This document shows, in pieces, positions 2-12,097 of a stretch of DNA of 64,000 nt (its first letter is position 1; each line of letters begins with the position of its first letter). Made by a program: the position numbers and the translations under genes. The stretch lies in assembly GCF_004364315.1 (NCBI RefSeq), contig NZ_SOBR01000001.1, positions 310,001-374,000 on the forward strand, written 5' to 3'. A model generated the notes under the pieces. That model searched no databases. It had not been told where the DNA came from and worked only from the letters and a program-made list of their open reading frames with translations. Origin of the DNA: Chromohalobacter marismortui. Its GTDB lineage: Bacteria > Pseudomonadota > Gammaproteobacteria > Pseudomonadales > Halomonadaceae.

Positions 2-697
2 TTCGGGCTGCAGGAAATCTTCGCCAATTTCATTTCCGGCCTGATCATCCTCTTCGAGCGGCCGGTGCGCATCGGCGACACCATCACGCTGGGCAACCTG
101 CATGGCACGGTCAGCCGCATCCGCATTCGTGCCACCACGGTGACGGACTTCGACCGCAAGGAAATCATCATTCCCAACAAGACCTTCGTCACCGATCAAC
201 TGATCAACTGGTCGTTATCCGACAACATTACCCGGGTCGTGCTGACCTACGGCGTCTCCCACGGCTCCGATCTCGAGCTGGTGCATCGTCTGCTGCGCCA
301 GGCCGCCGTGGACAATCCGCGCGTGCTCAAGGACCCCGAACCTCAGGTGTTCTGCCTCGAGTACGGGGCGACGGCGTTCAGCTTCGAATTGCGCATTTTC
401 GTCAATGACTTGATGGACCGTCTCTATGCCAGTGACGAAATCAACCGGCGTCTCGACGCCTTGTTCGATCAGCATGGCATTCGCATCGCCTTCAACCAGA
501 TGGACGTCTGGCTGCACGATGCTTCGGGGCGGCAGGCCTGGGTGAGCTCTCGGCCACAGGAGACGGCCACCTTGGGCGATGGCGCCGCATCGACGAGGTC
601 GACACGGCGCGACGGCATCGAGGACGTCGATGTCGGACGCAGCCCCAGCGGCGACGGGACGGATGCCGACGGAGGTGGAGGAGACGGCGGGCGCTAG
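2..697 (+). CDS. MscS-family mechanosensitive channel, C-terminal part (MscM/MscK-like), 5' truncated by window
   Basis: The reading frame is open from base 2 and shows the last 231 residues of a large MscS-type channel, an inner-membrane tension-gated pore that releases solutes during hypo-osmotic shock. Visible are the end of the pore helix (LQEIFANFISGLIIL), the adjacent beta-domain motif RPVRIGDTITLGN, and the alpha/beta vestibule with DFDRKEIIIPNKTF and QLINWSLSD. These are close to E. coli YjeP (MscM) and KefA (MscK). The C-terminus ends in a Gly/Asp-rich tail that looks lineage-specific. The N-terminal periplasmic part lies outside the window, so MscM and MscK cannot be separated. The stop overlaps the convergent tlyA gene by 4 bp. 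Confidence 0.88.
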   Translation, partial: FGLQEIFANFISGLIILFERPVRIGDTITLGNLHGTVSRIRIRATTVTDFDRKEIIIPNKTFVTDQLINWSLSDNITRVVLTYGVSHGSDLELVHRLLRQAAVDNPRVLKDPEPQVFCLEYGATAFSFELRIFVNDLMDRLYASDEINRRLDALFDQHGIRIAFNQMDVWLHDASGRQAWVSSRPQETATLGDGAASTRSTRRDGIEDVDVGRSPSGDGTDADGGGGDGGR

Positions 698-1455
698 GGG
701 CCAGAGTTGACCGCATGCAGCAGGAATTCGCGATTGCCGTCGCCGCCGCGCAGCGGGCTTTCCTGCCAGTGACGAATCGCGAAGCCGGCATCTGCGCAGC
801 TATCGCGAATACGTGCCTCGACGTCCGCGAAGAGCGCCGAATCGCGAACGATGCCGTGGGCATCGACCTTGCCGGGGCCGACCTCGAACTGCGGCTTGAC
901 CAGCGAGATCAACTGGCCTCCGGGCGCCAATACGGCGGCGAGTTCGGGCAGGATAAGCGTCTGTGAGATGAACGAGACATCCATGACCGCGACGTGCAGC
1001 CCCTCGGGAGCGAGTGCGGCGAGCCGCTCGCGGGGCAGGGCGCGGGCGTTGATTCCTTCCAGACAGATAACGCGGGGTTCCTCGCGCAGCACCGGGGCGA
1101 GCTGGTCGCGTCCGACCTCGATGCCGAGCACGCGAGCGGCCCCGAAGCGTAGCGCGCACTCCGTGAAGCCGCCGGTGGACTGGCCGACATCGAGCACCGT
1201 CATGCCATCGAAGCGCATCGCTAGCGTTTCTAGGACGCCTTCCAGCTTGAGACCGGCGCGCGAGACGTAACGGGCCTCGGGATCCTCGGTGACCGTGAAG
1301 CGGCTGGTGGAAGGCAGTGTCTCGCTGGGCTTGGTCAGTACGCGGGAAGGCTCCGAGGACACCAGCGTGACACGGCCATGGCGAATCAAGCGTTGCGCCC
1401 GGGTGCGTGAGCGTGCCCATCCCTGGGCGACCAGTAGTTGATCGAGGCGTGGCAT
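694..1455 (-). CDS. tlyA: TlyA-family rRNA 2'-O-methyltransferase (S4 + FtsJ-like)
   Basis: This 253-aa protein has an N-terminal S4 RNA-binding domain (about residues 1-62, MPRLDQLLVAQGWARSRTRA) followed by a Rossmann methyltransferase with the SAM-binding motif LDVGQSTGGFTE. Members called TlyA or hemolysin A methylate 2'-hydroxyls of 16S/23S rRNA cytidines in mycobacteria; the target in this organism is inferred, not known. A CGGAG ribosome-binding site lies about 6 bases before the ATG. The gene is monocistronic and its 3' end overlaps the MscS-like gene by 4 bp. The length is normal for the family. Confidence 0.9.
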   Translation of the reverse strand: MPRLDQLLVAQGWARSRTRAQRLIRHGRVTLVSSEPSRVLTKPSETLPSTSRFTVTEDPEARYVSRAGLKLEGVLETLAMRFDGMTVLDVGQSTGGFTECALRFGAARVLGIEVGRDQLAPVLREEPRVICLEGINARALPRERLAALAPEGLHVAVMDVSFISQTLILPELAAVLAPGGQLISLVKPQFEVGPGKVDAHGIVRDSALFADVEARIRDSCADAGFAIRHWQESPLRGGDGNREFLLHAVNSGP

Positions 1456-1516: not shown

Positions 1517-2611
1517 TCAGGGTGGGCCATCGCTCAAGCGGGTGTACTCGCGTTGCCAGCGCTCGAGCAGCGAATGGCGCTTGAGGGTGTCGAGGGTGGC
1601 CAGCAGACTGGGATCGATGGCGATCGGGTGAATGGCGTCGCCGAGGGCCTTGCGCAAGTCCAGGGCGGTGCCTTCGCCTGCGAGTGCAGTATGTATCGCC
1701 CCGAGAGGCGTCTTGTCGCGTATCACCTGCTGCCCTTGACGACTGAGCAGATAGTCGACGAAACGCTCGGCGGTATCGGGGTGGGGCGCGCGCTTGGGAA
1801 TCAGCACGAGACGCTGCGTCACCAGGGCGTAATCCTTGGGAATGACCATGTCCAATTGCGGGTGATCGGCCACGAACTCGCGAGCATAGGAACCCAGCAA
1901 GTTGTAGCCGATGGCGTAACGTCCGTCGGCCAATCCGTCGAGCATGTCGCCGGTGGTGTCGGCCAGCGCCGCGTTCACGCCGCCCAGGGCAGCGACCAGT
2001 TCCCAGTAGCGTGGCGACATGCGTGCGTCTTGGGTGGCGTAGGTATAGCCGGCGCCGCTGCGCCAGGGGTCGTACGTCACCACGCGGCCCTTCAGGCGTT
2101 GGCGTTGGTGGGTGAGTAGACGCAGCAAGGCTTCGTGGCTATCGGGGGGCGTGGCGCCTGCCAGGGCATCGCGTCTATAGACGATGACCACGGGCTCGAA
2201 GGTGAAACCGAACAATTCGTGACGCCAGCGATACGCTTCCGGCCAAGCGCGGGCGGCGGCGCTGTCGAGGGGCTGCGCGAGCCCTCGGTTGGCGATCTGA
2301 TACTGCCATGGCATGGCGGATGACATGATGACGTCGGCCGAGGTGGCGTTCGCCGACATGAAGCGTCGATAAAGCGCCAGCGTGGTCAGATTGCGATAGA
2401 CCAGCTCGATGTCCGGGTGGCGTGCATGAAAGTCGGCCAACAACGGCGCTATCAGTTGGTTATCCAGCGCGCCGTAAATCTCCAACGGCCGTGCGGGGGA
2501 TTGTGTGGCGGGATAACGCAGCACCTGGGCGTCGGCCAGCGTCAGCGCAGATAGCATCATGCCGGCAAGCATGAGGGTCCAGCGCGCGAGCGCGCGACAG
2601 CGTGCGGTCAT
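1517..2611 (-). CDS. Periplasmic solute-binding protein coupled to a TctDE two-component system
   Basis: This 364-aa protein has a signal peptide (cleavage probably near residue 27, after LADA) and the type-2 periplasmic binding fold of the iron/putrescine-like cluster, as in PLEIYGALDNQLIAPLLADF and later GRYAIGYNLLGSYA. No permease or ATPase gene is near. It is the last gene of a four-gene run (IclR-like, response regulator, histidine kinase, this gene), and its ATG overlaps the kinase stop by 4 bp. I infer that it presents a ligand to the kinase sensor domain rather than feeding an ABC transporter. The ligand is unknown; tricarboxylates are a guess from the divergent tctCBA operon. Confidence 0.75.
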   Translation of the reverse strand: MTARCRALARWTLMLAGMMLSALTLADAQVLRYPATQSPARPLEIYGALDNQLIAPLLADFHARHPDIELVYRNLTTLALYRRFMSANATSADVIMSSAMPWQYQIANRGLAQPLDSAAARAWPEAYRWRHELFGFTFEPVVIVYRRDALAGATPPDSHEALLRLLTHQRQRLKGRVVTYDPWRSGAGYTYATQDARMSPRYWELVAALGGVNAALADTTGDMLDGLADGRYAIGYNLLGSYAREFVADHPQLDMVIPKDYALVTQRLVLIPKRAPHPDTAERFVDYLLSRQGQQVIRDKTPLGAIHTALAGEGTALDLRKALGDAIHPIAIDPSLLATLDTLKRHSLLERWQREYTRLSDGPP

Positions 2612-3990
2612 GGGATTGACTCCTCAGTGAACTGCAAGCGCACACACAACCCCGGTGACGCGGCATGTGGGTGTACCGCCCCCAGGGTGAGCCGGGCGGC
2701 ATGGGCGCGAGCGATACCGTCGACGATCGCCAGTCCGAGCCCCGATCCTTGGCCGCTTTCCATGCCGCGGTGGAAGGGGCGCAGAACGAGCAGGCGTTGC
2801 GCCTCGGGAATGCCCGGGCCGTCATCCTCGACTTCCAGGCGCCGCGGAGCCTCGCCGACGCGTACCGTGATGCGCGAGGCACCATAGCGTCTGGCGTTAT
2901 CGATCAAGTTGGTCAAGGCCTCGGCGAGCTGCCAGTGGACGGCATGCTGGATGACCGCATGCGAAGGCGTTTCCACACCCAGGTCGATCCCGGCGCGGTG
3001 GCTGCTGGACAGGGCATCGCGTACGGCTTGTCGCGCGATATCGCAAAGATCGACGTCGCCGGCCTCCGGGCTCGACTCGGGATTGTTGAGGCGCGTCAGA
3101 GAGAGCAGTTGTGAGGCGAGGCGTGCGGTTTTGTCGGCACTGCCACGCATGACGTCGAGTGCATCGTGCCAGGCGCGGGGGTCGTCTTGACGCAGGGCGA
3201 GCTCGGCGCGTGCCGAAAGCCCCGCCAGCGGGGTGCGCAACTGATGTGAGGCGTCGCCGATGAAGCGTTCCTGGTTGGTGCGTACACGGCGCATCCGTGC
3301 CAACAGGTCGTTGAGGGTCTCACGTAACTCGGCGAGCTCGCGCGGGAGCGTCAGCTCCAGTGGTGCGAGGGTACGCGGATCGCGTGCGCGAATCGCACGG
3401 CGTAGCCGGGTCAGAGGCATCAGCGCCATGCGGACCCCGAGCAGCACCACGCCGATCGCCAATAGCGCCATGGCGATCAAGCGCAGCATGCTGCCCTGGA
3501 ATAACGTTTGTGTGAGGGCTTCGCGTCCTTCACGGGTATGGGCCACGCGAACCTCGAAGGGCTGGCGATTGCGCCATCCCTCCAGCCTCGATCGCCGCAC
3601 GCCGAGGCGCAGCGCCATGTCATGCCACTCGATGTTGGCGAAGCGCATGTTGCCCTGCCCTGTGTCGATCCGGGGTAGTTCGGCGTTGCCGCTGATGAAG
3701 TTGCCATAAGAATCGTAAAGGGCATAGAAAACGCGCTCCTCGGCGTTCGAGGCCAGCATCTTCAGAGCCGCGGGAGGCAAGTCCATCCATAGTTTGCCGT
3801 GCTGGCGTTTGACCTGCTCGGCGATGGACAGCGAGGCCGACTCCAGCAAACGGTCGAACGCTCGATCGGCAGTATCGCGCGAGGCCAGGTAGGCTTGAAT
3901 CAACATCAAGGTGCCCAGGGCCAGCATGGGGACCAGTAGCCAGATCAGCAGGCGCCGATAGAGGCTGGGGGGCTTGAACGTCGGGCTCAC
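2608..3990 (-). CDS. tctE: TctE-like sensor histidine kinase
   Basis: This 460-aa inner-membrane kinase has a first membrane segment at about residues 14-36, a periplasmic sensor region at about 37-168, and a second membrane segment at about 169-192. The phospho-acceptor His249 lies in ASHQLRTPLAG, the N-box in LTNLIDNARRYG (about 360-371), and the G-boxes in EDDGPGIP and GSGLGLAIV. This layout matches TctE-type kinases that sense tricarboxylates. Its start overlaps the response-regulator stop by 4 bp and its stop overlaps the binding-protein start by 4 bp, so all three should be translationally coupled. The family-level call is secure; the signal is inferred from the neighbouring tctCBA genes. 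Confidence 0.88.
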   Translation of the reverse strand: MSPTFKPPSLYRRLLIWLLVPMLALGTLMLIQAYLASRDTADRAFDRLLESASLSIAEQVKRQHGKLWMDLPPAALKMLASNAEERVFYALYDSYGNFISGNAELPRIDTGQGNMRFANIEWHDMALRLGVRRSRLEGWRNRQPFEVRVAHTREGREALTQTLFQGSMLRLIAMALLAIGVVLLGVRMALMPLTRLRRAIRARDPRTLAPLELTLPRELAELRETLNDLLARMRRVRTNQERFIGDASHQLRTPLAGLSARAELALRQDDPRAWHDALDVMRGSADKTARLASQLLSLTRLNNPESSPEAGDVDLCDIARQAVRDALSSSHRAGIDLGVETPSHAVIQHAVHWQLAEALTNLIDNARRYGASRITVRVGEAPRRLEVEDDGPGIPEAQRLLVLRPFHRGMESGQGSGLGLAIVDGIARAHAARLTLGAVHPHAASPGLCVRLQFTEESIP

Positions 3991-4673
3991 GCCTCACTCT
4001 CCAACAGGTAGCCCAGCCCCCTCACGGTGCGCAATGTCAGCGACGAACCGGCAAGCCGTCGGCGCAGGCGATGGATATAGACCTCGATGGCGTTGTCGCC
4101 GAGCGTTTCGTTGCTGAAGACATGCTCGAGAAGGCGGGCCTTGTCTATCGGTTCCCCGGCATGCCGCATCAGATATGCCAACAGGCGTTGCTCACGGGGT
4201 GGCAGATCGAGGCTGGCCTCATCGAGAGTAAAGCGTTGCGTGAGGGTATCGAAATGCAGCGTGCCGACATGCAGTTGTGTGCCGTCGTCGTGCTGGCGCC
4301 GGCGCAACAGGGCGCGAACCCGGGCTTCCAGCTCGTCCAGGGCGAAGGGCTTGGCCAGGTAGTCGTCGGCACCTAGATCGAGCCCTTTGACGCGGTCCTC
4401 GATGGCGCCACGTGCGGTCAGGATCAAGACCGGCGTGTCCTGGTCGTGACGACGCATGGCGTCGAGAATCTCGAGACCACCCCGGCCCGGCAGGTTGAGA
4501 TCGAGCAAGACCAAGGCGTGGCCATGGCCGGGCGTGGCGAGGCGCGTGAAGGCAGCGTCGCCGTCCTCGAGGGCGTCGACGCGATAGCCAGCCAGACTCA
4601 GTGCGTCGTACAGCGTATCGGCCAGTAGGGCGTCGTCTTCGACCAGGAGCAGGGAAGCGGTGTCGGGCGTCAT
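3987..4673 (-). CDS. tctD: TctD-like OmpR-family response regulator
   Basis: I place the start at MTPDTASLLLVEDD, giving 228 aa; the longer open frame upstream runs antisense through the IclR-like gene and is not plausible. The receiver domain has acidic residues at VEDD (12-14), phospho-acceptor Asp58 in LLDLNLP and Lys108 in YLAKPF. A PhoB-type winged helix follows (TLRTVRGLGYLL near the end). It should activate tctCBA, which is transcribed divergently about 0.8 kb away. The ATG overlaps the stop of the IclR-like gene by 4 bp. Confidence 0.9.
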   Translation of the reverse strand: MTPDTASLLLVEDDALLADTLYDALSLAGYRVDALEDGDAAFTRLATPGHGHALVLLDLNLPGRGGLEILDAMRRHDQDTPVLILTARGAIEDRVKGLDLGADDYLAKPFALDELEARVRALLRRRQHDDGTQLHVGTLHFDTLTQRFTLDEASLDLPPREQRLLAYLMRHAGEPIDKARLLEHVFSNETLGDNAIEVYIHRLRRRLAGSSLTLRTVRGLGYLLESEA

Positions 4674-5260
4674 GTCGGATAGTCCTGCAATGCACGTCGG
4701 CTCAGCGCTGTCGCGGCTTCTTGCAGGGCGCGCCGCGCGTCCGCGACGGGCAAGCGCCCCTTGGGGCCCGAGAGGCTCAGCCAGTACGTGGTGCCGGGAA
4801 TGTGCTGACAGGTCATGGCGCCGCCCGGCAAGGCCAGGCGAGGGTCGCCCGCCTGCCACTGCCAGCGATATCCGGGACGCAGCGTATGGCGCAGGTCGGT
4901 GTCCGGCAAGATGCTCAGGCGGCATTCCATCTGATTTTCCTCGCATGACAGCAGCGCGGCGGTCTCTCCCGTGTCGTGGGATAAACGCTCGAGCACCGGT
5001 ATGACCAGACTCGCCAGCTGACGCGAAGGTGCATGGCGTCGTGCCAGGCGGGCCGGGGTGGCGCCCAGGCGATAGCGTCCCCGCGCATCGCGTTGTACAT
5101 AATCGTAGCGCTCCAGCGAGCCGAGCAGGCGTAACAGCGTACTTTTGTAAAGTGTGGTCGCCTCGGCCAACTCGGCCAAGGACAAGCTTTCATGCTGCGT
5201 GTCGAAGGCTTCCATGATGGATAGCGCGCGCTCTACAGCCTCCACCCTATCTTGCGCCAT
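4670..5260 (-). CDS. Short IclR-family transcriptional regulator
   Basis: The N-terminal winged helix is typical of IclR (VERALSIMEAFDT, LAELAEATTLYKSTLLRLLGSL). The C-terminal effector domain is abbreviated: the protein is 196 aa against about 250-270 usually. The end of the domain (YWLSLSGPKGRL) is present, but the middle stretch that normally carries an H-x-x-A-x-G-K-A-type motif is missing. This looks like an in-frame loss of about 50-60 residues rather than a frameshift. It is the first gene of the operon containing tctD, tctE and the binding protein, and it faces tctC across a 194-bp divergent region. It probably regulates one or both units. Confidence 0.75.
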   Translation of the reverse strand: MAQDRVEAVERALSIMEAFDTQHESLSLAELAEATTLYKSTLLRLLGSLERYDYVQRDARGRYRLGATPARLARRHAPSRQLASLVIPVLERLSHDTGETAALLSCEENQMECRLSILPDTDLRHTLRPGYRWQWQAGDPRLALPGGAMTCQHIPGTTYWLSLSGPKGRLPVADARRALQEAATALSRRALQDYPT

Positions 5261-5380
5261 GGGAACTCCCGGCGGTTGTGTACCAGCGTGATGGTGTTCA
5301 ACTTTAGTCGCGAACGACGTGATTTGCGTTGACGCTCGTTCGTGACATGCCTAGTTTTCCGCTCAAGGGAACGTTGTTCT

Positions 5381-5400
5381 GCCTTACAGAACTGTAAGGC
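5381..5400. promoter_or_regulatory. Perfect 9-bp-arm palindrome, putative operator of the tct locus
   Basis: GCCTTACAG-AA-CTGTAAGGC is a perfect inverted repeat (arms 5381-5389 and 5392-5400). It sits 55 bp before the tctC start, inside the divergent region between the IclR-like gene and tctC. No terminator-like T-run follows it. A binding site for TctD or the IclR-like protein is inferred. Its CTGT/ACAG steps face outward-in, so it is not a LexA box. Confidence 0.55.
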
Positions 5401-5454
5401 AAGTGTCAGCTTTCTCGCAACCCATTTCAATCTCGTGCAAGGGAGACAACAACA

Positions 5455-6441
5455 ATGGCTTTCAAGACGCCACTCAAAATTCTCATGGCAGCTGCGCTGA
5501 CACTCAGTGCCAGCACTGCCATGGCGTTCCAGCCGGAAGGCAAGGTCGAGTGCATCGCTCCCTCGGATCCCGGCGGCGGTTGGGACTTCACCTGCCGCAG
5601 CGTAGGTAACGTGATGGAAGATCTCGGCTTGGTGCCGGGCAGCGTGCAGACCATCAACATGGCCGGCGCCGGCGGCGGTGTCGCGTATGCGCATACGATC
5701 AGCAAGCGTGCCGGCGACGATCAGTTGCTGGTGGCGGCGTCCACCGCGACCACGACGCGTCTGGCGCAAGGTCAGTTCCAGGGCCTGGACGCCGACATGG
5801 TCAACTGGATCGGTGCGCTGGGGGCCGATTACGGCATTATCGCCGTCTCCAAGGATGCGCCGTATCAGAACCTCAACGACCTGATGGCCGCCCTCAGAGA
5901 AGATCCGCGCAGTGTCACCTTCGCTGGTGGTAGCGCCAAGGGCGGCTGGGATCATCTCAAGGTGCTGATCGCGGCGCAGGCGGCGAACGTCGATAACCTG
6001 CCGCGGATTCCGTATCTGTCCTACAACAACGGTGGCGAGGCCATGACCCAGGTGGTCGGCGGGCATGTCGATGCCTTCACCGGTGATATCAGTGAGGCCC
6101 AGGGCTTCATGGAATCTGGCGATCTACGCGTGTTGGCCGTCCTGTCCGACAAGCGGCTGCCTGGCGAGTTCAACGATCTGCCCACCGCCAAGGAACAAGG
6201 CATCGATGCCGTGGGGGCGAACTGGCGCGGCTTTTACATGCCGGCGGATATTTCCGGTGAAGCCAAGCAGTACTGGATCGATGCGGTCGACAAACTGTAT
6301 GCCAGCGACGAATGGAAGAAGGTCATGAAGAATAATGGCCTGATGCCGTTCCATGTCAGCGGTGCCGAGTTCGAAAAATATGTGAAGCAGCAGATCCAAG
6401 ACATCCAGTCGCTCTCCAAGGAAATCGGGTTGATCAAGTAA
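5455..6441 (+). CDS. tctC: Tripartite tricarboxylate transporter substrate-binding protein TctC
   Basis: This 328-aa periplasmic protein has a Sec signal peptide ending in STAMA (residue about 23). The TctC/Bug fold is recognised from VECIAPSDPGGGWDFTCRSV at the start and NNGGEAMTQVVGGHVDAF further on. It captures a carboxylate for the TctAB membrane part, which uses an ion gradient. The ribosome-binding site AAGGGAG lies about 10 bases upstream. The TAATG junction with tctB makes a 1-bp overlap. Citrate or another tri/dicarboxylate is likely, but the ligand cannot be read from sequence. Confidence 0.93.
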   Translation: MAFKTPLKILMAAALTLSASTAMAFQPEGKVECIAPSDPGGGWDFTCRSVGNVMEDLGLVPGSVQTINMAGAGGGVAYAHTISKRAGDDQLLVAASTATTTRLAQGQFQGLDADMVNWIGALGADYGIIAVSKDAPYQNLNDLMAALREDPRSVTFAGGSAKGGWDHLKVLIAAQAANVDNLPRIPYLSYNNGGEAMTQVVGGHVDAFTGDISEAQGFMESGDLRVLAVLSDKRLPGEFNDLPTAKEQGIDAVGANWRGFYMPADISGEAKQYWIDAVDKLYASDEWKKVMKNNGLMPFHVSGAEFEKYVKQQIQDIQSLSKEIGLIK

Positions 6442-6896
6442 TGACCCAGCTCAACGACCGTATCTTCGGTGTGCTGATGCTCGTCCTGGCCGTCGCGTAC
6501 GGCTGGGGCGCCACACAGTTTCCGGTACCATTCGGCGGGTCCGAGGCTGTCGGACCCGAGACCTTTCCCAAGGTCCTCGCGGTGGTGCTGGCACTGTCCA
6601 GCCTCTATCTGATGTTCAAGCCGGACCCCGACAACGCCTGGCCCAAGGGCCGTATCATCCTCGAGCTGGTAATTGCCGTTCTGGTGTTGGTCGCCTACAC
6701 GTTGCTGCTGCAGCCGCTGGGCTTCATTCCCTCGACGCTGCTGGCCGTGGGAACGCTATGCTGGCGCATGGGCGCTGCCCCGGTGCGGGCGTATGTCACT
6801 GGCGCGGTTGCCGGTGTCGTGGTCTATCTGCTGTTCACTTACGCCCTCAATCTGGCGCTGCCGTTGGGCGTGCTTAGCGTCCTGGAGGGAAGCTGA
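6441..6896 (+). CDS. tctB: Tripartite tricarboxylate transporter small membrane subunit TctB
   Basis: This 151-aa integral membrane protein has four predicted hydrophobic segments: one at the N-terminus (GVLMLVLAVAYGWGA), two in the middle and one at the C-terminus. It is the size and layout of TctB, the small subunit that pairs with TctA in the inner membrane. The start overlaps the tctC stop by one base and the stop overlaps the tctA start by one base (TGATG), so the three genes form a coupled operon. Sequence conservation in this family is low, and the call rests largely on position. Confidence 0.9.
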   Translation: MTQLNDRIFGVLMLVLAVAYGWGATQFPVPFGGSEAVGPETFPKVLAVVLALSSLYLMFKPDPDNAWPKGRIILELVIAVLVLVAYTLLLQPLGFIPSTLLAVGTLCWRMGAAPVRAYVTGAVAGVVVYLLFTYALNLALPLGVLSVLEGS

Positions 6897-8410
6897 TGGA
6901 AACCCTGGGTTTTCTGATCGACGGGTTCGGCGTCGCTCTGGCGCCGCACAACCTGATGTTCGCCCTGATCGGTGCCTTCCTGGGTACCTTGATCGGGGCC
7001 TTGCCGGGGTTGGGCCCCGCCAATGGCGTGGCGATTCTGATTCCGCTGGCCTTCACGCTGGGCCTGCCGCCGGAAACGGCCTTGATCATGCTGACCTCGG
7101 TCTATGCCGGGGCCATGTACGGGGGGCGTATCTCGTCGATACTGCTCAACATTCCCGGCGACGAGCCGGCGATGATGACCTGTCTCGACGGTTATCCGAT
7201 GGCCCAGAAGGGCAAGGCCGCCGAAGCACTGGCGATCTCGGCGATCGCCTCGTTCATGGGCAGCCTGATCGCCACGATCGGGCTCATCCTGCTGGCGCCG
7301 CTGCTGGCCAAGTTCGCCTTGACCTTCGGTGCGGCGGAATACTTTGCGCTGTTCGTGCTGGCCTTCGCCACCCTGGGCGGTATCACCGGCAAGAACCCGG
7401 TCAAGACGATTCTTGCCGCCGCGATCGGCCTGATGATCGCCACGGTGGGCATCGACTCTACCGGTACGCAGCGCTATACCTTTGGCATCTTGAAACTCTA
7501 CGAAGGCGTGGACTTCATCATCGCCATCGTCGGCCTGTTCGCGATTTCCGAGTTGCTGTTCTTCATCGAGGACCGCGCCGGTGGCGGCAAGGGGCCGATG
7601 AAGGTCAACAAGCTCACGCTGTCCTTCAAGGAAGTCCGCGAGATCATGCCGTCCAGCATCCGCGGTGGCATCCTCGGCTTCATCGCCGGTGTCCTGCCGG
7701 GCGCGGGCGCGTCACTGGGCAGCTTCATCGGTTACACCCTCGAAAAGAAGGTGGTGGGCAAGAAAGGCTACTTCGGTGAAGGTGATCCGCGCGGCGTGGC
7801 CGGTCCCGAGGCCGGCAACAATGGGGCCTCGAGCGGTGCGCTGGTACCCATGCTGACACTCGGTGTGCCGGGCAGCGGCACGACCGCCGTGCTGCTGGCG
7901 CTGCTGATCTCGATGAACATTACGCCCGGGCCGCTGATGTTCACCCAGCATGCGGACATCGTGTGGGGCGTGATCGCAGCGTTATTGATCGGCAACTTCC
8001 TGTTGCTGCTGCTCAACATTCCGCTGGTGGGGATCTTCGTCAAGCTGCTCTCGGTACCGCCCAAGTACCTGCTGCCGATCGTGACCATGGTGGCGTTCGT
8101 GGGCATCTACTCGATCAGCAACTCGGCGTTCGACCTGTACTTCATGGTCGCCTTCGGCGTGCTCGGGTACTTCCTGCGCAAGCTGGAAATTCCCATGGTG
8201 CCGATCATCCTCGGCCTGCTGCTGGGGCCGGAGATGGAGAAGAATCTGCGCCATGCCTTGACGCTGTCCGATGGCGACTGGACGGTGCTGTGGAGCAGCG
8301 GCCTGGCGATCGGCCTGTGGGTCGTGGCCTTCGTCGGCCTGGTGCTGCCATACATCGTCGGCCCGATCCTGCGGCGGCGCATGAAGGCTGCGCAGGAGCT
8401 TACCGACTGA
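6896..8410 (+). CDS. tctA: Tripartite tricarboxylate transporter large membrane subunit TctA
   Basis: This 504-aa protein has about 11-12 membrane segments. The two Gly/Pro-rich signature loops of TctA are present: GTLIGALPGLGPANGVAIL near residue 30 and GFIAGVLPGAGASLGSFIGY near residue 265, with EAGNNGASSGALVPMLTLG downstream. It forms the translocation pathway with TctB and receives substrate from TctC. It is the last gene of the operon and is followed by a strong hairpin. The length matches the family. Confidence 0.95.
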   Translation: METLGFLIDGFGVALAPHNLMFALIGAFLGTLIGALPGLGPANGVAILIPLAFTLGLPPETALIMLTSVYAGAMYGGRISSILLNIPGDEPAMMTCLDGYPMAQKGKAAEALAISAIASFMGSLIATIGLILLAPLLAKFALTFGAAEYFALFVLAFATLGGITGKNPVKTILAAAIGLMIATVGIDSTGTQRYTFGILKLYEGVDFIIAIVGLFAISELLFFIEDRAGGGKGPMKVNKLTLSFKEVREIMPSSIRGGILGFIAGVLPGAGASLGSFIGYTLEKKVVGKKGYFGEGDPRGVAGPEAGNNGASSGALVPMLTLGVPGSGTTAVLLALLISMNITPGPLMFTQHADIVWGVIAALLIGNFLLLLLNIPLVGIFVKLLSVPPKYLLPIVTMVAFVGIYSISNSAFDLYFMVAFGVLGYFLRKLEIPMVPIILGLLLGPEMEKNLRHALTLSDGDWTVLWSSGLAIGLWVVAFVGLVLPYIVGPILRRRMKAAQELTD

Positions 8411-8494: not shown

Positions 8495-10513
8495 TTATGG
8501 CGCGGAAAGGGCCTGTAGTTCCGCGGCCGGGACCCGGTCGGCCCCCCAGCTGCAGTACACATGCCGGATCACCCGGTCGAGCTCGGCCTGAGGGATATTG
8601 GCCAGCTCACCGTGTTCCAGTGGGTCGTAATGGAAGATATACAGGCGTGAGGCGAATTGCTCGAAGGGCAGCGACGCCTCACCGAAGCGTTCGCCGCAAC
8701 CGGCGGTGCTGACTTTGGTGTCGTCGCCCCAGTCCTGGCCGCTATCGTTATTGGGATTGAAGAAGTAGGCGCGCATCACGTCCTGGGGGTCCAGGTTGAC
8801 CCGTAACAGGGTGATGGCGTGCCAGCCGATGAAGCGTGCCGCACTGTCGGTTACCGCGATGCCTGCGGGTTGCGGGTGAATCAGCGGCTGATTGCCGTTG
8901 TAGTAGGGGTGGTAGCTGGCATAGAAGTGACGCAAGAACGCGTCGAGGTCTCGGAGCTGGCCGGTCCCCACGTCGACATTGATACGAAAGCCGCGGCCGG
9001 CCCACCAGCCATGAAACTCCGGATTGACCCAGCGGTGCGGGTCGCCCTCGCGGCCGGCACAGCGGCGGCCCATCTCGGCGTAGATGCGGTCGAGATGCGG
9101 CACCACGATCAGCGATACCGGGTCGAGATCCAGCGGCAGGGCGGTAGCCACGCCGGATAGACTGGCCATCGACGATAGCGGCATGCCCTCGAAATGCATG
9201 ATGATCTCGTCGTCTCGGGCCGCCCAGGCAACCATCTGTAGCAGATAATCCGGATCGTTATAGGCCCACATCGACAGCGCGCGTGCCGATTGACAGGTCG
9301 GGTTGTTGCCCTGACCGACCCCCAGTGGCAGGCCGAGCATGCACAGCACGCCCTCGAGGAGTCGCGCCCGGGGCGCCACGGCGTCGCCATAGGCCATGCG
9401 GATGCGTTCCTGCGACCAGGCCGAGACCGGCAGGCTGATCTGGCGCCACAGCGCGGGGGCGACCGGCGGCTGATAGAGGATGCCGCGCTCGAGCATCAAC
9501 GCCAGTCCATAGACCGCCTGGGGGGTCTCGGGAAAGACGCCTTCCTCGATGAGGGCCTGCACCAGCTGGCGGTAGCAGAGCAGACAGTCGCGCCCGGTGG
9601 CCGACAGCCCCAGCGCCTCGGCCAGCAGATGATCGCCTTGGTCGAGTAGATGGCGCAGCAACACCGCATGATAGGCCGACACCAGGCCGGTATCGTGCAT
9701 GGCGCGGGCGAACCCGGTGGCCTCGTACTGCAGGGCGCCGCTGTCCATTGCTTGCAGGCGTTCGAGGTAGACCTCGACACCGGGATCCTCGCGGCAGGCC
9801 TGGGTGGCACCGAACAGACTGCTGACCAGGCGGTCGGCGCCCTGACCGCTGGCGCCCAGATCGATGTCGGGATTGGCCTGACAGATAGCGATCTGGGCGA
9901 TCATGCGCTTGATCGCATCGACCTGGATGGGGCGTTGCTGCAGGATGCGCCAGATTTCGTCGATCAACTGATCGATGACGTGTTCGTAGCCGATGGTTTC
10001 GGCCAGATGCGCGAACAGGCCACGCGTCAATTGCGCCAGGCGTCCTTGGGTTTCGCGTTCGGCCTCGCTGGGCGTACTGAACAGCAGCTCGAGATTGAGC
10101 GCCAGGACCTGGGTGAGATAGTGATGCGCCTGCTCGGTGGAGATCAGCGCATGCGCGTAGCGGCCCTGAGCCACGGCAAGCAAGCGCAACTCGCTGAGCG
10201 CCTCGAGCACCACGGTGTCGCTCTCGGGGCTCTTTAGCGAATGCACGGTCAGCGATGGCACCAGAATCTGCGGCTGGGCCCAGTCGGAACCCGCGAAGAT
10301 GCCGGCGGCCTCGATCATGTGGGCGCGCGCTTCAATGGCGGCGCAGCCACCCGGTTGCAGCATCACCTTGCGGGCGCCGTCGAAGACCCGGCGTAGCTTG
10401 CCGGGCTTGGCGAAGTCGGGGGCGTTGGCGAGGATCTCGATCGCTTCGTCGAGCTTGGTCAGCGCAGCGTCCAACTTGGTGTTATCCGGGGTTTGTTCGT
10501 CGTGACTCGTCAC
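8495..10513 (-). CDS. Uncharacterised 672-aa protein with putative papain-like Cys/His/Asn site, partner of ATP-grasp gene
   Basis: I do not recognise a named family. Residues about 1-380 look all-helical. The C-terminal part has features of a papain-like thiol hydrolase: Gln401 six residues before Cys407 (QGNNPTCQSARALSMW, the oxyanion-Gln to catalytic-Cys spacing of papain), then His565 in FIGWHAITLLR, then Asn586/Asn588/Asp590 in FFNPNNDSGQDWG. The order and spacing fit a Gln-Cys-His-Asn site, but this is my reading and not a profile match. There is no signal peptide or membrane segment, so it is probably cytoplasmic. It is the second gene of a minus-strand pair, 33 bp after the ATP-grasp gene. 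An isopeptidase, amidase or transpeptidase acting on the ATP-grasp product is the inference. Confidence 0.6.
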   Translation of the reverse strand: MTSHDEQTPDNTKLDAALTKLDEAIEILANAPDFAKPGKLRRVFDGARKVMLQPGGCAAIEARAHMIEAAGIFAGSDWAQPQILVPSLTVHSLKSPESDTVVLEALSELRLLAVAQGRYAHALISTEQAHHYLTQVLALNLELLFSTPSEAERETQGRLAQLTRGLFAHLAETIGYEHVIDQLIDEIWRILQQRPIQVDAIKRMIAQIAICQANPDIDLGASGQGADRLVSSLFGATQACREDPGVEVYLERLQAMDSGALQYEATGFARAMHDTGLVSAYHAVLLRHLLDQGDHLLAEALGLSATGRDCLLCYRQLVQALIEEGVFPETPQAVYGLALMLERGILYQPPVAPALWRQISLPVSAWSQERIRMAYGDAVAPRARLLEGVLCMLGLPLGVGQGNNPTCQSARALSMWAYNDPDYLLQMVAWAARDDEIIMHFEGMPLSSMASLSGVATALPLDLDPVSLIVVPHLDRIYAEMGRRCAGREGDPHRWVNPEFHGWWAGRGFRINVDVGTGQLRDLDAFLRHFYASYHPYYNGNQPLIHPQPAGIAVTDSAARFIGWHAITLLRVNLDPQDVMRAYFFNPNNDSGQDWGDDTKVSTAGCGERFGEASLPFEQFASRLYIFHYDPLEHGELANIPQAELDRVIRHVYCSWGADRVPAAELQALSAP

Positions 10514-10546
10514 AAGGGCTCCTTTTGCCCAAGAGTACAGGCGCGA

Positions 10547-11770
10547 TTATACATAGAAGTCGAGCTCTTCCTGGTGCTTGAGCAAGTCGCGCATGGTATG
10601 CGGATCGTCGCCGAAGAAATACAAAAGTCCCCAGTGGGTCCCGAAGGCCGTCCGTTTGGTGACGGTTTCCTCGAGCGGTGCGGTCAACTCATGGGATTCG
10701 AAGTAGGGGTGATCCTCGGTTTCCTCGGGCATCTGCAGGCGACTGACCACGCGGCGACGCGGGTATACCCCGAAACAGCCGGCGACGCCCTTGGCATCGA
10801 CCACCTCGCGGGGAAAGAAGTCGGTGATCTCCTGCTCGGTGGTCTTCGGGTCGAAGGACAGGATCAGCCCCTGGTAGGCATTGAAGCCATAGGCGCGTTC
10901 GAGCAGTTCGAAGACTTTGAACCCCGGGGGGCGGTAGGCGACTTCGCCGAAGTACATCTCGCCGTCGCTGGTGACGAAGTATTCGGGATGCACGAAGCCG
11001 AAATCGATGTCGAAGGTCTTGATCAGTTTCTCGATCTGGCGGGTGATCGACTCGCGGTATCTTTCGAGTTCCGGGGTCGCCGGGACGAACACCGAGTAAC
11101 CCAGGGTCACGTATTCGGAAATGTTGAGAAAGCGAATCTTGCCGTTGTGGATCCATGCCTCGACGGCGAATTCCCAGCCATCGAGGTGCGATTCCATCAG
11201 CACCGGGAATTCTTCTTCGGGGATGGTATCGACCTCGTCCGGCGTGCGGATCACGCGGTGCCCCAGGCAGCCCGCCTTGTCGAAGGCCTTGAGATGAATC
11301 GGATCATTGGGGTCGCCGTCGAGCTTGAGCAGCGTCTGGTTGACGCGCTTGAGGAAGCGGATGACATCTTCCTTGTCGTGGGCTTCCTCGAAGATGCCCA
11401 CACGGATGCCCCCCAACTGCGCGCGGCGCTTCATCAGCGCCTTGTCACGCAATAGCAGCGCCTGGCCATACAGACGGGGATTGTCGAGCAGCACCGAGTT
11501 GATCGCGCCGGCCCATTCGACGGTTTCTTCGTAAAGCGGAATGGCGACGTCTACGCCCATCTCCTGGAGCGTCTCGGCGATTTCCATCGAGCGATCATTG
11601 AGGCGCTCGAAGTTCCAGGGCACATAGGGGATCGCGTGCTCCTGGCAGTATTCCTCGGCCCAGTCGGGGGCCACGACGACATAGCGGCGGTCGAAGTTCT
11701 CGGCGGCTTCGATGGCATTCAGACTCCAGCCCAGTAGCGCGATATGTCCCTTCTCGGGGTTCTTGTCCAT
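10547..11770 (-). CDS. ATP-grasp carboxylate-amine ligase of unknown substrate
   Basis: This 407-aa protein has an N-terminal pre-ATP-grasp Rossmann-like part (GHIALLGWSLNAIEAAENF) and an ATP-grasp core. Candidate ATP-binding Lys161 lies in HLKAFDKAGCLGHRVI, Glu193 in LMESHLDGWEFAVEAW, and the metal/phosphate residues in HPEYFVT (261-267) and GEVAYRPPG (275-283). These enzymes join a carboxylate to an amine through an acyl-phosphate. The acceptor here is unknown. A strong site (AAGGAG) precedes the ATG. The gene is first in an operon with the papain-like 672-aa gene, which suggests a make/cut or make/transfer pair on a peptide or amino-acid conjugate. No clear precursor peptide gene is visible nearby. 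Confidence 0.78.
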   Translation of the reverse strand: MDKNPEKGHIALLGWSLNAIEAAENFDRRYVVVAPDWAEEYCQEHAIPYVPWNFERLNDRSMEIAETLQEMGVDVAIPLYEETVEWAGAINSVLLDNPRLYGQALLLRDKALMKRRAQLGGIRVGIFEEAHDKEDVIRFLKRVNQTLLKLDGDPNDPIHLKAFDKAGCLGHRVIRTPDEVDTIPEEEFPVLMESHLDGWEFAVEAWIHNGKIRFLNISEYVTLGYSVFVPATPELERYRESITRQIEKLIKTFDIDFGFVHPEYFVTSDGEMYFGEVAYRPPGFKVFELLERAYGFNAYQGLILSFDPKTTEQEITDFFPREVVDAKGVAGCFGVYPRRRVVSRLQMPEETEDHPYFESHELTAPLEETVTKRTAFGTHWGLLYFFGDDPHTMRDLLKHQEELDFYV

Positions 11771-11985: not shown

Positions 11986-12097
11986 GGTGGCCCTGTCGGT
12001 CCTCCCGCAACGCTAAACCGCGAACCCCGCCAGGCCCGGAAGGGAGCAACGGTAGTGGTGGCTGCGTGTGCCGGGATGTGGCTGGCGGGGCCGCCTC
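11986..12097 (+). ncRNA. ffs: 4.5S RNA of the signal recognition particle
   Basis: The sequence matches the bacterial small SRP RNA. The 5' arm GGTGGCCCTGTCGGTCCTCC pairs with the 3' arm that ends in GGGGCCGCC. The apical domain has AGGCCCGGAAGGGAGCA with the GGAA tetraloop at 12038-12041, and the conserved GTGTGCCGGGATGT stretch returns on the 3' side. This hairpin binds Ffh and directs membrane proteins to the translocon. It lies just upstream of dnaX, as in pseudomonads. The exact ends are uncertain by a few bases. Confidence 0.95.

Follow-up and report, generated by a model that had tools for sequence, protein, structure and literature searches.

Which reaction do two adjoining genes of Chromohalobacter marismortui serve, one resembling ATP-grasp ligases and the other belonging to a family that Pfam, NCBIfam and PADLOC all lack? 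The genes lie in a stretch of 64,000 nucleotides (contig NZ_SOBR01000001.1, positions 310,001 to 374,000), which is called the window here and whose numbering is used throughout. Both are read from the minus strand: the gene for the ATP-grasp ligase (10547..11770, 407 amino acids, ATG start) is followed, after an intergenic gap of 33 bp (10514..10546), by the gene for a putative papain-like thiol hydrolase (8495..10513, 672 amino acids, GTG start), and a GGAG sequence precedes each of the two starts. These open reading frame (ORF) coordinates agree with an initial annotation of this DNA, which had described a same-strand gene pair 33 bp apart and suggested that one enzyme attaches an amino acid or peptide and the other removes or transfers it. 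ATP-grasp enzymes form amides via acyl phosphates, and papain-like enzymes cleave or transfer amides via thioesters. We propose that the two proteins constitute one functional unit that both forms and breaks amides of one kind, a reading to which we assign slightly less than an even chance. The ligase would join a carboxylate to an amine at the expense of ATP; the thiol enzyme, equipped with a helical N-terminal platform, would hydrolyse or transfer the resulting amide; and a zinc amidohydrolase related to histone deacetylases (HDACs), present in many genomes, may act on the same amine chemistry.

Joint retention and loss of the ligase and the hydrolase

The distribution of the two genes was compared in three samples of genomes. 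In the class sample, the hydrolase was detected in 8 of 274 genomes and a ligase with an identity of 80% or more in the same eight, while 14 other genomes yielded distant ligase matches only, with identities up to 38%; the threshold for a close ligase was chosen after the fact, across what is a wide gap in this sample. The phylum sample contained the hydrolase in 11 of 398 genomes and a close ligase in the same 11, ten others showing weak matches only. Within a Marinobacter-type genus, hydrolase and ligase were each present in 70 of 81 genomes, and the same 11 genomes were devoid of both. Fisher's test returned p values of 1e-15 (class), 1e-21 (phylum) and 8e-14 (genus) when genomes were treated as independent; the samples share a few genomes, and restriction to one genus offers partial control for relatedness. 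Hence, the co-occurrence in other genomes that had been anticipated for the pair was observed as identical genome sets in all three samples. In view of this strict joint retention and loss, both proteins very probably act on the same substrate. Moreover, as the hydrolase never occurred without a ligase partner in the genomes examined, deletion of either gene should make it possible to find the substrate.

Physical linkage of the genes is common. The named relatives are the best 80 of at least 586 confirmed stretches, retrieved with two patterns and counted as stretches rather than genes. In 73 of these 80, the ligase gene immediately precedes the hydrolase gene and has the same orientation. 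Among the other seven, one carries the ligase ~7.5 kb away on the opposite strand and six are without a ligase in the local stretch, and all seven possess a 77–79% identical ligase elsewhere in the genome. A ligase stub, corresponding to the C-terminal part, remains directly upstream of the hydrolase in five of the six (our locus handles L069, L090, L092, L093 and L097) and also in five genomes of the Marinobacter-type genus (G667, G686, G702, G723 and G733). All ten stub genomes also carry a full-length ligase elsewhere. The stubs were detected by tblastn at permissive E-values: the piece in L069 is weak (E 0.003), those in G667, G686 and G723 range from 1e-3 to 1e-6, and a trace in L050 (E 0.13) was not counted. 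Thus, where the adjoining ligase has decayed, a full-length replacement is present, and this holds in at least two genera. In other clades the pair is linked in divergent, convergent and reversed orders; the orientation table double-counts some loci and was used only to learn which gene orders exist.

Conserved residues and predicted fold of the hydrolase

The hydrolase carries Gln401, Cys407, His565, Asn586 and Asp590, residues that had been listed in the initial annotation and that were all read at these positions from the translation. All five are retained in 169 of 169 distinct relatives, that is the sequences aligned across residues 401–590 in one tblastn piece at an E-value of 1e-60 or better; conservation of Cys407 and His565 in homologues had been set as a test beforehand, and both are present in every member of this set. 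The same five residues are invariant in 24 C-terminal domains that are 53–87% identical to that encoded in the window, and a full-length alignment of eight hydrolases shows no invariant Cys other than Cys407. Conservation of the Gln/Cys/His/Asn/Asp set is beyond chance. The Cys, the His and the Asn/Asp follow each other in papain order, and the Gln-x5-Cys spacing is that of papain. By analogy with papain, we take the motif Gln401-Gly-Asn-Asn-Pro-Thr-Cys407 (9293..9313, minus strand) to provide the oxyanion Gln and the nucleophilic Cys; His565 (8819..8821, minus strand) is the putative catalytic His, and Asn586-Pro-Asn-Asn-Asp590 (8744..8758, minus strand) may supply the third catalytic residue. 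Conservation alone cannot single out the triad, since further residues such as Asp475, His493 and His535 are likewise invariant in the 169 sequences.

For structure prediction, AlphaFold2 was supplied with a shallow alignment of 51 hydrolases (50 of the 80 named loci among them; 74–94% identity to the first row). Residues 1–395 (9329..10513, minus strand) are helical in the model and include no strand, mostly with a predicted local distance difference test (pLDDT) score above 65, which bears out the all-helical N-terminal region noted earlier and suggests a putative helical repeat for binding of a partner or substrate. In the remaining part of the model, Cys407 is found near the start of helix 405–419, His565 just ahead of strand 568–574 and Asn586 just past strand 580–585. 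According to a study of papain-like enzymes, the Cys always resides at the start of the core helix, and the order of helix with Cys, then His, then Asn, as in the model, is expected (PMC10318531). Since the helix harbouring Cys407 has a pLDDT near 30, we infer a papain-like fold of the hydrolase rather than regard it as demonstrated. Although residue spacing, placement of the Cys near the start of a predicted helix and the predicted His/strand/Asn order are shared with clan CA, database comparisons returned no Pfam family of this clan and no PDB chain. The best matches of the hydrolase had E-values of 0.18 in Pfam and 0.24 in NCBIfam, none of note, and its sequence matched no PDB entry; a profile of the 24 C-terminal domains retrieved nothing from PDB even at an E-value of 10, and the 24 members matched six weak Pfam families at E-values up to 10, none of them in clan CA. 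With PADLOC, neither the ligase nor the hydrolase matched any family at E-values up to 1. A Foldseek search with the model yielded no match at an E-value of 0.001 or better and barely reached beyond residues 9–234, and VIA-align gave no Z score of 8 or higher, the best (Z 6.6) pointing to generic helical repeats, mainly within residues 9–234. These fold searches hardly probed the catalytic domain and therefore give no verdict on a match to papain.

The ligase and its relatives of solved structure

The initial annotation had ascribed ATP-grasp motifs to the first gene, and profile comparisons point in this direction. Its product matches ATP-grasp_4 in Pfam with an E-value of 2.7e-5 and 24.3 bits, just under the cutoff of 27. 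A profile built from eight relatives produced four PDB matches in total (E 9.5e-4 to 0.069), including the L-amino-acid ligases 3vot (BL00235; E 9.5e-4) and 4wd3 (E 3.7e-3) as well as 4dim, named phosphoribosylglycinamide synthetase (E 1.1e-3); we take all four to be ATP-grasp-type ligases or synthetases. Lys161, Glu263, Glu276 and Arg280 are invariant across eight aligned rows, and the latter three (10931..10984, minus strand), whose counterparts in the alignment to 3vot are E, E and R, are putative Mg2+/phosphate-binding residues, as in ATP-grasp enzymes. The similarity to 3vot and 4wd3 comprises these three positions and the C-terminal part of the ATP-grasp region but does not go beyond the modest E-values given above, and we know of no thiol-hydrolase partner for L-amino-acid ligases.

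That the nearest solved relatives of the ligase are L-amino-acid ligases would also suit a linear biosynthesis, in which the ligase is followed by a thiol acyl- or aminoacyltransferase to yield a small amide, for instance a stress solute or a peptide-like metabolite, with the HDAC-like enzyme stripping a protecting acetyl group. The pair occurs in salt-loving and marine bacteria, the best 80 named relatives belonging mainly to Halomonas and kin, which are salt-loving, and according to the ORF list of the window no exporter adjoins the pair; both points are compatible with such a pathway. However, solitary hydrolase paralogues exist at many loci and no further dedicated gene was seen around the pair, so that we rate a linear biosynthesis as somewhat unlikely.

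Hydrolase paralogues and a possibly shared ligase

In the window's own genome, ligase and hydrolase each gave one match. Hydrolase paralogues have multiplied in the Marinobacter-type genus (that of genome G442, 81 genomes), with up to seven matches in G731 when partial ones are counted, and in many genomes of this one genus the hydrolases outnumber the ligases. This surplus suggests a common product that is used in several places. It is conceivable that a single, strongly conserved ligase acts together with several diverged hydrolases and may be provided by a gene at another locus: identities of the ligase amount to 79–92% in seven other genomes as compared to 41–77% for the hydrolases of a similar set. 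The same divergence, the surplus of hydrolases and their helical platform could also be accounted for by a reversible protein modification, in which the ligase would tag a conserved cytosolic protein and hydrolases steered by their helical N-termini would untag different targets. A target, tag or carrier protein was, however, not found, and the pattern suits small-molecule enzymes as well; we thus consider protein modification an unlikely explanation.

Patchy distribution along with paralogue expansion in one genus might further be expected of a toxin-antitoxin or anti-phage unit. Against this idea stand the missing PADLOC match, the outcome of a pattern scan of the viral collection, which detected no relative, the presence of a single relative among 72,556 plasmid records, located on a 1.8-Mb replicon, and the fact that the partner ligase can sit at a distant locus. 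A role of this kind therefore appears highly improbable to us.

An HDAC-like amidohydrolase as a frequent third partner

At some loci the pair is accompanied by an HDAC-like amidohydrolase. In L014 its gene is positioned ~40 bp after the hydrolase gene, in L018 it separates hydrolase from ligase, and in L180 it and the hydrolase gene are convergent. This partner is close to the class-II HDAC-like amidohydrolases HDAC6, HDAC10 and HDAH and, like them, shows RPPGHH and EGGY. In the samples examined, the full-length subfamily was seen in pair-positive genomes only: in the class sample it occurs in 6 of the 8 genomes with the pair and in none of the 266 without it, and in the genus in 55 of the 70 with the pair and in none of the 11 others. 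A hand-picked set, sharing positives with the class, phylum and locus samples, contained it in at least 21 of 25 pair-positive genomes and, among the matches listed, in 0 of 31 pair-negative ones. Full length refers in the class and hand-picked sets to a match starting at query residue 7 or before; for the genus an E-value of 1e-75 or better was used, and in one of the 55 genomes (G719) the match is only partial, at the end of a contig. Other HDACs encoded in pair-negative genomes reach up to 51% identity over residues 47–347 (G214), and the N-terminal stretch of ~45 residues present in the partner HDAC is not shown by the HDACs listed for these genomes. The partner gene lies within ~3.2 kb of the ligase or the hydrolase in 7 of the 55 genus genomes (G707, G697, G733, G716, G672, G725 and G406). 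This linkage was read by eye and compares with a rough expectation of 0.5, calculated from rounded anchor counts with shared ancestry ignored. Around 22 HDAC loci, no gene cluster occurred in more than six, apart from those of the HDAC and of the ORF antisense to it.

Polyamine conjugation was at first attractive. The partner HDAC matches, among others, the polyamine deacetylase HDAC10. The model for such a system is glutathionylspermidine synthetase/amidase, which likewise combines amide synthesis by an ATP-grasp domain with amide hydrolysis by a papain-like domain. In addition, a solitary hydrolase paralogue neighbours a potFGHI-type polyamine transporter operon at 6 of 56 loci (L173, L174, L253, L255, L257 and L262), the transporter type having been named for two of the six. 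Further inspection weakened this idea. A single genus accounts for all six loci, and at four (L253, L255, L257 and L262) an opposite-strand gene intervenes. Unlike the glutathionylspermidine enzyme, the pair is encoded by separate genes, has no Pfam family in common with it (no match to GSP_synth or CHAP at E-values up to 1) and includes an additional helical region of 395 residues in the hydrolase. Finally, PEG/PIS motifs, which one study ties to polyamine deacetylases (PMC11532494), were not apparent on visual inspection of the partner HDAC sequences. We thus regard polyamine conjugation as very unlikely.

A proposed single amide substrate for the enzymes

In light of the strict co-retention of the pair, the replacement of the ligase in trans and the frequent presence of a third amide hydrolase, a single amide substrate that is produced by the ligase and taken apart by the other enzymes fits best. 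In its fullest form, this reading would amount to an undescribed amide cycle with three enzymes in halophilic and marine bacteria, where an ATP-grasp writer is opposed by several papain-like erasers and a dedicated HDAC-like deacylase, all directed at one modified protein set or at one metabolite; this complete version is possible, yet on the whole doubtful. By kind, the pair resembles glutathionylspermidine synthetase/amidase and the amidoligase operons that Iyer and colleagues in 2009 reportedly found to combine ATP-grasp, alpha-E and transglutaminase-like proteins; with these operons it shares the combination of a ligase, a thiol enzyme and a helical protein. In terms of Pfam families it belongs to neither system, no match to Alpha-E, CP_ATPgrasp or Transglut_core being obtained in the pair at E-values up to 1. 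We found no paper on the pair in the literature searched, which left most subscription journals outside its coverage. Concerning the interpretation in the initial annotation, conservation of the residues and co-occurrence of the genes stood, and the ligase at another locus, the solitary paralogues and the HDAC-like partner had not been foreseen.

Several observations weigh against a dedicated cycle. Many hydrolase paralogues are solitary and have no neighbouring ligase; unless a single ligase serves them in common, they are a poor fit to a fixed two-step cycle. Since the ten stub cases fall in close relatives, they may go back to few events. The HDAC is absent, among the matches listed, from the window's own genome (G000) and from G160, G293 and G661, and within the genus from 15 of the 70 pair-positive genomes; it is therefore neither essential to the pair nor obligatory. 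Apart from the HDAC, the gene clusters around 50 chosen loci (best 60 clusters) and around the diverged hydrolases revealed no consistent third gene across genera. Lastly, the models are of low confidence: the mean pLDDT of the hydrolase is 67.7, with most of the catalytic domain below 50 (residues 396–509 and 541–567), and AlphaFold2 reached a mean of 43.1 on a shallow alignment of 29 ligases (28 of the 80 named loci; 78–98% identity to the first row).

Whatever the substrate, the hydrolases form a large, well-conserved enzyme family of culturable halophiles to which the libraries searched assign no annotation. Should the substrate be a protein, the pair would represent a new reversible modification in bacteria with an HDAC attached; if it is a metabolite, a new amide pathway would operate in relatives of Halomonas and Marinobacter.

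Genomic surroundings of the pair

The nearest named relatives of the hydrolase, 94–95% identical, are those of C. sarecensis and Chromohalobacter sp. 11-W, and many of the neighbouring gene clusters represent synteny within the Halomonadaceae. Upstream of the ligase, the window contains a gene for the bacterial small signal recognition particle RNA (11994–12090, plus strand), beyond which lies an ORF that we take to be dnaX. At two other loci, a protein presumably of the S41-peptidase type is encoded near the ligase or the hydrolase (L171, 9735–11078, plus strand; L181, 4866–6158, minus strand). It was rejected as a partner, with 12 occurrences among 44 pair-positive genomes and none among 11 pair-negative ones (p 0.10; 55 of the 81 genus genomes covered) and a sporadic distribution in the genus. 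In L013, positions 3400–7260 (plus strand) encode a large protein that resembles TOMM kinase/cyclase fusions but scores below the cutoff of that model; its gene ends ~130 bp from the convergent hydrolase.

Downstream of the hydrolase, convergent ORFs of the window presumably encode a tripartite-tricarboxylate-type transporter; together with what we take to be a two-component system, they occupy positions 1517–8410, between the hydrolase and a gene for a presumed TlyA-like ribosomal RNA methyltransferase (694–1455, minus strand). The TlyA-like gene is present in 67 of the 80 named loci, often less than 200 bp downstream of the hydrolase and on the same strand; it is convergent to the hydrolase in L094 and lies ~7 kb from it in the window.

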